44,803 nucleotides of DNA, from positions 1 to 44,803 of the IMG/VR virus record IMGVR_UViG_3300036791_000872, one strand, 5' to 3'. Position numbers and translations under genes: made by a program. Under the pieces are notes generated by a model, which did no database searches, had not been told where the DNA came from, and saw nothing but the letters and a program-made list of their open reading frames with translations. The stretch comes from a virus. Of the stretch, positions 31,199 through 31,336 are shown one piece after another (positions within the stretch are counted from its first letter, which is position 1; each line of letters begins with the position of its first letter).

Positions 31199-31336
31199 GC
31201 CGCGCGGGCCGGAGCGATGCCGGTTATCTGGAACAAGAGTGCGCGGGTTCGACTCCCGCCGCGCGGTGTCGCGCGTCGCGTGTAGCTCAGTTGGTAGAGC
31301 ACTTGTCATCGGCTCGTGGCACCTCGCCCGCGCGGC
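31199..31336 (+). ncRNA. Y RNA 2 (YrlA-like, most tRNA-like)
   Basis: Outer stem GCCGCGCGGG (31199-31208) with CCCGCGCGGC (31327-31336). Signature GGGCCGGAG, inner stem CGA-t-GCCGG with TCGGC-TCG, then GTTATC. Module: T arm GCGGG-TTCGACT-CCCGC (31243-31259), CGCGCG hairpin as capped acceptor stem, then an intact D arm TAGCTCAGTTGGTAGAGCA (31283-31301). The order T arm then D arm is reversed relative to tRNA, that is, permuted. It is not a functional tRNA gene (no anticodon arm in the normal place). Confidence 0.88.

Follow-up and report, generated by a model that had tools for sequence, protein, structure and literature searches.

Why would an RNA encoded in front of a Ro60-like gene carry the arms of a tRNA in the wrong order, and where could such an RNA come from? 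The question is raised by a viral contig, IMG/VR record IMGVR_UViG_3300036791_000872, whose 44,803 bases are referred to here as the window. Directly 5' of its Ro gene (Table 1) lie RNAs that share a box, GGCCGRAG...CGGTTA, at 31063, 31207 and 31362. More than 250 species of bacteria and phages reportedly encode likely Y RNAs close to Ro60, and at least one Y RNA per species is said to possess a tRNA-like domain. A sequence-only reading of the window had described the second of the three RNAs as a YrlA-like module in which the T arm comes first, a closed hairpin takes the place of the acceptor stem and the D arm follows.

According to a review, YrlA mimics the D, T and acceptor parts of tRNA, is modified by DusA and TruB (PDB 6CU1) and ties the Ro protein to PNPase (PMC8394870). 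A model of YrlA as a tether has been published (PMC8394870, PMC7790460). The literature also mentions mycobacteriophage Y RNAs (PMC12282133), YrlA in a Mycolicibacterium prophage (PMC8190616) and, in the context of jumbo phages, a TROVE protein with a tRNA-like partner (PMC7824862).

The Ro locus and its four units

The window was searched with R1, a covariance model built from 34 units of relatives and none from the window. The 34 were chosen from 42 units with short linkers, and eight were left out by hand, the window's among them. The structure named for the alignment consists of two Ro helices, an anticodon arm, a T arm, an acceptor hairpin and a D arm. With this held-out model four Ro-stem units, numbered 0 to 3, were found to precede the Ro gene, so that the three RNAs of the sequence-only reading have to be joined by a fourth, unit 0. 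Sequence and covariation show a two-helix Ro stem in each unit and, in units 1-3, parts of a circularly permuted tRNA in the order 3' half, closed acceptor hairpin, 5' half. At the site of unit 0 Rfam also matches CeN72 of nematodes, though weakly (19.9 bits, E 0.19; gathering score not reached). CeN72 is a stem-bulge RNA, and stem-bulge RNAs have been termed homologous to Y RNAs (PMC4726728).

The Ro region is flanked by two serine recombinase genes, at 28674-30068 on the minus strand and 35157-35951 on the plus strand. One is large and of the integrase type and the other is a resolvase, a pair that hints at a temperate phage. An integrase gene likewise lies near the Ro gene in Cashline and BearBQ, two phages of Gordonia. 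Phage recombination genes for an ERF-type annealing protein, a DUF2303 protein and a PDDEXK nuclease lie at 24325-26986 of the window, and a weak Ro-stem-like R1 match (16.0 bits, E 0.038) is located far from Ro at 39248-39307 on the minus strand.

Table 1. Features of the Ro region, in positions of the window
Feature	Positions	Strand	Evidence or remarks
Unit 0: Ro-binding stem without tRNA-like module	30980-31042	+	R1 26.0 bits, E 1.7e-4
Unit 1: Y RNA with anticodon-like hairpin, T arm, closed 7-bp hairpin and short D arm	31057-31182	+	R1 69.7 bits, E 9.5e-15; fold z -3.5
Unit 1 anticodon-like hairpin TCTC-CTGCTAA-GAGA, loop readable as GCU	31083-31097	+	4 bp, 7-nt loop; aligned to R1 anticodon arm
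Unit 1 T arm CTGGG-TTCGAAT-CCCAG	31102-31118	+	Sequence, structural rule, R1
Unit 1 closed acceptor hairpin, 7 bp, CTCG loop	31120-31137	+	Sequence
Unit 1 short D-like arm GTG-TTGGTCAAC-CAC	31141-31155	+	Sequence; missed by structural D-arm rule
Unit 2, whole RNA	31199-31336	+	11-bp closing stem 31199-31209/31326-31336; R1 match 31201-31333, 78.1 bits, E 9.9e-17
Unit 2 Ro box, 5' strand	31207-31227	+	Helix 31219-31223 paired with 31309-31313
Unit 2 anticodon-stem strand 39-43 (ACAAG), then 5-nt variable region AGTGC	31233-31237	+	5/5 pairs with 31302-31306
Unit 2 T arm	31243-31259	+	GCGGG 31243-31247, loop TTCGACT 31248-31254, CCCGC 31255-31259
Unit 2 closed acceptor hairpin	31260-31282	+	tRNA register 31260-31266/31276-31282; register of the sequence-only reading 31260-31265/31270-31275
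Unit 2 UA (positions 8-9) and D arm	31283-31300	+	TA 31283-31284 in the place of U8 A9; D arm 31285-31300
Unit 2 anticodon-stem strand 27-31 (CTTGT)	31302-31306	+	5/5 pairs with 31233-31237
Unit 3: Y RNA with T arm 31394-31410 and closed hairpin	31356-31493	+	R1 50.6 bits, E 2.9e-10
Ro60-like protein gene, GTG start	31518-33101	+	TROVE and Ro60 vWA; Pfam PF25045 E 2e-62, PF05731 E 2.3e-42; PHROG 850

Unit 2 and the YrlA order

Unit 2 consists of an anticodon stem, a variable region, a T arm, an acceptor hairpin, UA and a D arm. The D arm reads GCTC-AGTTGGTA-GAGC in the sequence and is followed by A26 and CUUGU, while ACAAG ends five bases 5' of the T arm. All five anticodon-stem pairs form, and unit 2 therefore retains its anticodon stem, which opens into the Ro stem; it is the anticodon loop for which the Ro stem substitutes. 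The sequence-only reading had the Ro stem replacing the anticodon stem. This has to be made more precise, as in unit 2 only the loop has been replaced, and unit 1 and most relatives with a readable anticodon arm have a hairpin of their own and a Ro stem between positions 26 and 27.

The closed hairpin described in the sequence-only reading is present, but a second register has to be set beside the one given there. With the T arm, D arm and anticodon stem forced, the two are nearly equal in energy, at -67.5 for 31260-31265/31270-31275 and -67.9 for the register that reaches 31282. The latter ends directly 5' of UA, which is the geometry of a tRNA, and it was picked by both covariance models, YrlA and R1. 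Energy alone does not yield the tRNA-like fold, because the unconstrained minimum-energy fold of unit 2 (-74.0 versus -67.9) keeps the D arm and loses the T arm. The arrangement is nevertheless more than chance would give: the E values of the YrlA and R1 matches are low, and only 0.4% of Markov shuffles place a T arm as close as 55 nt to a Ro box.

An ordinary tRNA gene running through the region was rejected as a candidate, since ARAGORN gave no native-order cloverleaf there. ARAGORN found no tRNA in the whole window, and the only tRNA-type Rfam match at the region is to tRNA-Sec (21.9 bits, E 0.08), below its gathering score, in agreement with the expectation that no normal tRNA could be folded there. 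Rotated into tRNA order, unit 2 still drew no ARAGORN call and is thus not the full cloverleaf of a circularly permuted tRNA gene; neither is unit 1, which has no D arm under the rule used.

The Rfam YrlA model (RF02553), over the full length of the model, matches 31217-31325 of unit 2 with 36.6 bits and E 2.2e-6. The gathering score of 69 bits is not reached, so unit 2 is best termed YrlA-like. The match and the held-out R1 model (Table 1) bear out both the permuted tRNA order and the sequence T arm, closed hairpin, D arm that had been read in unit 2. These arms stand in that order inside a Ro stem, and the RNAs are encoded beside a Ro60 orthologue. The likeness to YrlA extends to the UA before the D arm, to the anticodon stem that opens into the Ro stem and to the adjoining position of the Ro60 gene. 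Among 14 annotated phage Ro loci that were read, eight have a YrlA match with E of 0.01 or less, and none reaches the gathering score. In the consensus of RF02553 the parts already follow one another as T arm, closed hairpin, UA and D arm, and the idea that the permuted order is new in itself was rejected for this reason. The permuted tRNA mimic is a sound re-discovery of the YrlA order, since the YrlA consensus, a review and the phage Y RNA literature already show its like. By the YrlA standard unit 2 is the most complete unit of the window, and its topology is the classical one.

Unit 1 is different. An intact anticodon hairpin lies 5' of its T arm, and the Ro stem is placed between positions 26 and 27. 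Such a separate anticodon hairpin, found in unit 1 and many relatives, is absent from the RF02553 consensus structure. Because unit 2 has the classical YrlA topology and unit 1 the other, two ways of opening a tRNA are found side by side in one phage. Units 1 and 3 had been described as copies with a T arm kept and a D arm worn. The D arm of unit 1 is indeed short and that of unit 3 is not recognisable, nor is an anticodon arm in unit 3, but the description of unit 1 overlooked its anticodon-like hairpin. The Deinococcus Y RNA (RF01053) shares the Ro box, GGCCGAAG...CGGUU; its match to unit 1, however, reaches 18.3 bits (E 1.5), where gathering requires 80.

The units of relatives

The Ro protein of the window has tblastn matches in 342 of 50,697 phage records, with identity below 60% in all 342. 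It stands at 47-49% for Gordonia phages Cashline and BearBQ, whose arrays are readable. Ro-stem units lie near Ro in 13 of the 14 phage loci examined, the exception being one Sinorhizobium phage. The actinophage Ro loci (Bxz1-like mycobacteriophages and Gordonia, Streptomyces and Microbacterium phages) resemble the window in having Ro-stem units upstream of or near a Ro-like gene. They differ in their Ro proteins, which stay under 60% identity to that of the window, and their arrays vary in the number and kind of units. Full-length R1 matches occur in 13 of the 14 phage Ro loci and in 10 of the 11 that had no part in building the model.

A Ro alignment matched 423 viral and 418 genomic relatives, and the best 80 of each kind were fetched; a query with the single protein found none. 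This gave 175 sequences (174 loci and the window), of which 169 have at least 200 bases 5' of Ro. At least one Ro-box unit is present in 104 of the 169, with 254 units in all, 242 of them distinct and, as they include relatives and array neighbours, not independent. Sixty of the distinct units have a T arm followed by a D arm, 48 have just the T arm and 89 have neither. The other 45, which show nothing but a D-like arm, were discounted, the null for the loose D-arm rule being 24%. A D arm follows the T arm in 60 of 108 T-arm units (null 15.9%), and a D-like arm precedes it in five of the 108. Among the loci with units, 17 of 48 viral ones and 17 of 52 genomic ones combine a T-then-D unit with a unit lacking one. 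It is confirmed that the arrays of relatives mix complete, partial and module-less units, a mixture that hints at particles of several kinds. For a second set the Ro box alone served as the query, and 67 viral loci were fetched. After removal of known and short units this set held 52 distinct units from 44 loci, 14 with T and D arms, four with a T arm only and 34 lacking a T arm; L182 and L199 in it are nearly identical.

The structure of the modules is supported by covariation. In the alignment of 34 units 93.0% of the cells form standard pairs, compared with 73.9% when shuffled and 30-49% when slid, and both sides have changed in 23 of 31 pairs, compared with 16.4 in shuffles; none of 500 shuffles reached any of these measures. 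Ro helices 1 and 2 are paired in 94% and 88% of cells, with compensatory changes. RNAalifold found the Ro, T, acceptor and D helices of the 34 units unaided and left out the anticodon helix, though 79.5% of its cells pair under MAFFT columns. In 64 units with acceptor strands at the exact spacing of a tRNA, 6.02 of seven pairs form on average, versus 3.52 with swapped strands (maximum 4.06) and 2.6-3.0 with slid strands, and UA occupies the two bases 5' of the D stem in 48 of the 64. Whole-genome searches with R1 gave a full-length match near Ro in 15 of 16 genomes, and in eight of the nine that were not used for the model.

Anticodon arms and the rotation test

A hairpin with a 7-base loop lies between the Ro box and the T arm in 25 of 95 segments, with 11.7 expected. 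For loops of 5, 6, 8 and 9 bases the counts in the same 95 segments are 19, 20, 11 and 19, with 13.1, 12.9, 11.5 and 10.5 expected. All four inner anticodon pairs are present in 28 of 78 segments (7.5 expected). Among these 28 loops, C32 is found in 23, U33 in 26, A37 in 24 and A38 in 25, with positions 34-36 mixed, and 51 readable loops contain 29 different triplets. Flanking loop bases that are kept around varied positions 34-36 are the signature by which anticodon loops are known. Both topologies of the window recur among 66 units: nine have the five-of-five anticodon-stem pairs of unit 2 (3.3 expected) and 24 a hairpin of at least 4 bp like that of unit 1 (9.0 expected).

The two halves of each T-then-D unit were rejoined in tRNA order and submitted to ARAGORN. 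In this form 37 of 60 modules were called tRNA, seven of them with an unreadable anticodon, compared with three of 60 in native order and none of 1200 shuffled. When only the anticodon segment was shuffled, 403 of 1200 were still called tRNA. About 20 anticodons occur among the rotated modules called tRNA. In the second set 11 of 14 rotated units were called tRNA, versus one in native order and none of 280 shuffles. Strong R1 matches outside the alignment number 28, including two window units and some already in the 60-unit test; 25 have both arms and 18 become a tRNA on rotation, versus none of the 28 in native order. The 18 include a match in L016, the window's closest viral Ro relative among the best 80 of 423.

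Some modules also have a CCA where a tRNA would. In 15 of 57 genomic units and seven of 45 viral ones, spread over 12 of 33 genomic and seven of 28 viral loci, it occurs exactly 8 nt 3' of the T arm, where in a tRNA it would follow seven acceptor bases and the discriminator. Other offsets mostly have counts of 0-2, with the highest, 5-6, at offsets 3, 5 and 24. The CCA was not enriched in the second set (none of 18 units). Because rotation yields tRNAs in the judgement of ARAGORN, with about 20 anticodons and some CCA at the tRNA place, the modules of many relatives are, in predicted structure, circularly permuted tRNAs with the anticodon arm included.

No description of an anticodon arm in bacterial Y RNAs was found in the passages of the YrlA literature that were searched, and none of the papers listed treats both permuted tRNAs and Y RNAs. 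The topology with an anticodon arm may already be described in the key YrlA papers (Chen 2014, Wang 2018, Sim and Wolin 2018).

A probable origin in tandem tRNA arrays

Where could a tRNA in permuted order come from? Positions 26-105 of R1 match ordinary chromosomes, and the sites compared with ARAGORN lie where one real tRNA gene adjoins the next, as tRNA-Ile and tRNA-Ala do in L254. There are 11 further full-length R1 matches away from Ro, in seven of 16 genomes, the strongest with E 2.9e-11 (G014:C926), and the one of the 11 that was examined overlaps a tRNA-Thr. An Anaerolinea genome (L256) has a Y RNA array at 3948-4437 directly after 32 tRNA genes, the last of which ends at 3938 (the whole stretch is 372-4437). 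In phages Boopy and Sixama units lie inside tRNA arrays. Since R1 matches tandem tRNA junctions and Y RNA units adjoin or lie within tRNA arrays, the modules were probably born in such arrays. The 3' half of one tRNA would have stood beside the 5' half of the next, and the two halves would have been retained once a Ro stem enclosed them.

Four annotated tRNA genes (Thr, Ile, Leu and Ser) overlap R1 units, at 3250-3328 of L004, 5528-5595 and 5714-5802 of L006 and 77-144 of L014. The phage records with these annotations are prophiGD43A-5, Boopy and Big4.

By a narrow margin we lean towards a wider reading, that many such Y RNAs are complete permuted tRNAs whose anticodon arms have many identities and some of which retain a CCA as a fossil in the loop of the acceptor hairpin. 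They would have been made repeatedly from neighbouring genes of tRNA arrays, opened either in the anticodon loop (YrlA, unit 2) or between 26 and 27 (unit 1), and closed by the Ro stem, and a single array would offer Ro different tRNA identities.

Function and alternative explanations

The explanation of the window that we consider probable is a Ro60-like ring with four Ro-binding Y RNAs, of which units 1-3 have permuted-tRNA parts that arose in tandem arrays and a tRNA-shaped end that recruits a partner. The Ro ring would grip the RNA by its stem. The tRNA-shaped end would attract a tRNA-binding partner, for instance PNPase or another exonuclease of the host, or enzymes that modify tRNA, and one Ro protein with several Y RNAs could form several machines. 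The RNAs of the window may thus bind different partners, as the sequence-only reading proposed. By analogy with what has been proposed for YrlA, a tether function would be the most likely.

The main rival is a decoy role against anticodon nucleases, in which Y RNAs held and protected by Ro present anticodons as baits that occupy or inhibit the host's tRNA-cutting defence nucleases. The varied triplets within kept flanking bases would suit such baits, but free drift of the triplet would give the same pattern. All five arrays with two ARAGORN calls carry different anticodons, and some units lie within phage tRNA arrays (L006, L012). A role of YrlA as a competitive inhibitor of an anticodon nuclease has been proposed, and Salmonella YrlA is not cut by the nuclease studied, which fits an inhibitor and not a sacrificial bait (PMC7790460). 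However, an anticodon loop is missing from unit 2, which is the best preserved in the window, and chromosomal genomes carry such units as well as phages. Overall we regard the decoy role as unlikely.

Somewhat less likely again is that the Y RNAs serve only as a gate that covers the Ro ring and controls the entry of RNA. The tRNA-like end would then be a stable cap with no partner, which would explain why it is decayed in units 1 and 3 and missing from unit 0. Many relatives, like unit 0, have a Ro stem and no module. A mere cap is difficult to reconcile with the conservation of the T, acceptor and D arms with compensatory change, which means that many units are under selection for a tRNA shape.

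Could the complete units elsewhere be precursors from which functional tRNAs are made by cutting and re-ligation, the way red algae do it? Once rotated, modules can be read as whole tRNAs, and a few of these end in NCCA. The circularly permuted tRNA genes of Cyanidioschyzon, green algae and Thermofilum (PMC3978253) also have the 3' half before the 5' half, joined at the acceptor ends by an intervening sequence, so that both the order and the loop are as in the algal genes. Their listed junctions, however, are 15/16, 20/21, 37/38, 50/51 or 59/60, versus 26/27 here, and in units of the window's kind the two free ends form a Ro-binding stem, with no maturation known. Most aligned units have A-G as pair 27-43, the first of the anticodon stem, and L123, L138, L154 and L169 combine nearly identical acceptor strands with different anticodons, unlike real tRNAs. 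With the Ro stem kept and the window units incomplete, working tRNAs are a very improbable product. Degenerate tandem tRNA genes with no Y RNA role, a reading to which the R1 matches at real tandem junctions would lend themselves, are already disfavoured and, if anything, still less credible, as those matches are mostly limited to R1 positions 26-105 and the units beside Ro have a Ro stem on both sides with compensatory changes.

Implications

For the annotation of phage genomes these results are a warning, as tRNA calls can be Y RNAs and no phage match seen reaches the Rfam cut-off for YrlA. For the biology of the family, tandem tRNA genes offer a concrete source of bacterial Y RNAs and a reason for the odd order of their parts. 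A single Ro protein can have a whole set of RNAs at its service, mimics of different tRNAs. The anticodon arms make the question of the partner, that is, which tRNA-binding protein or nuclease is recruited, directly testable.
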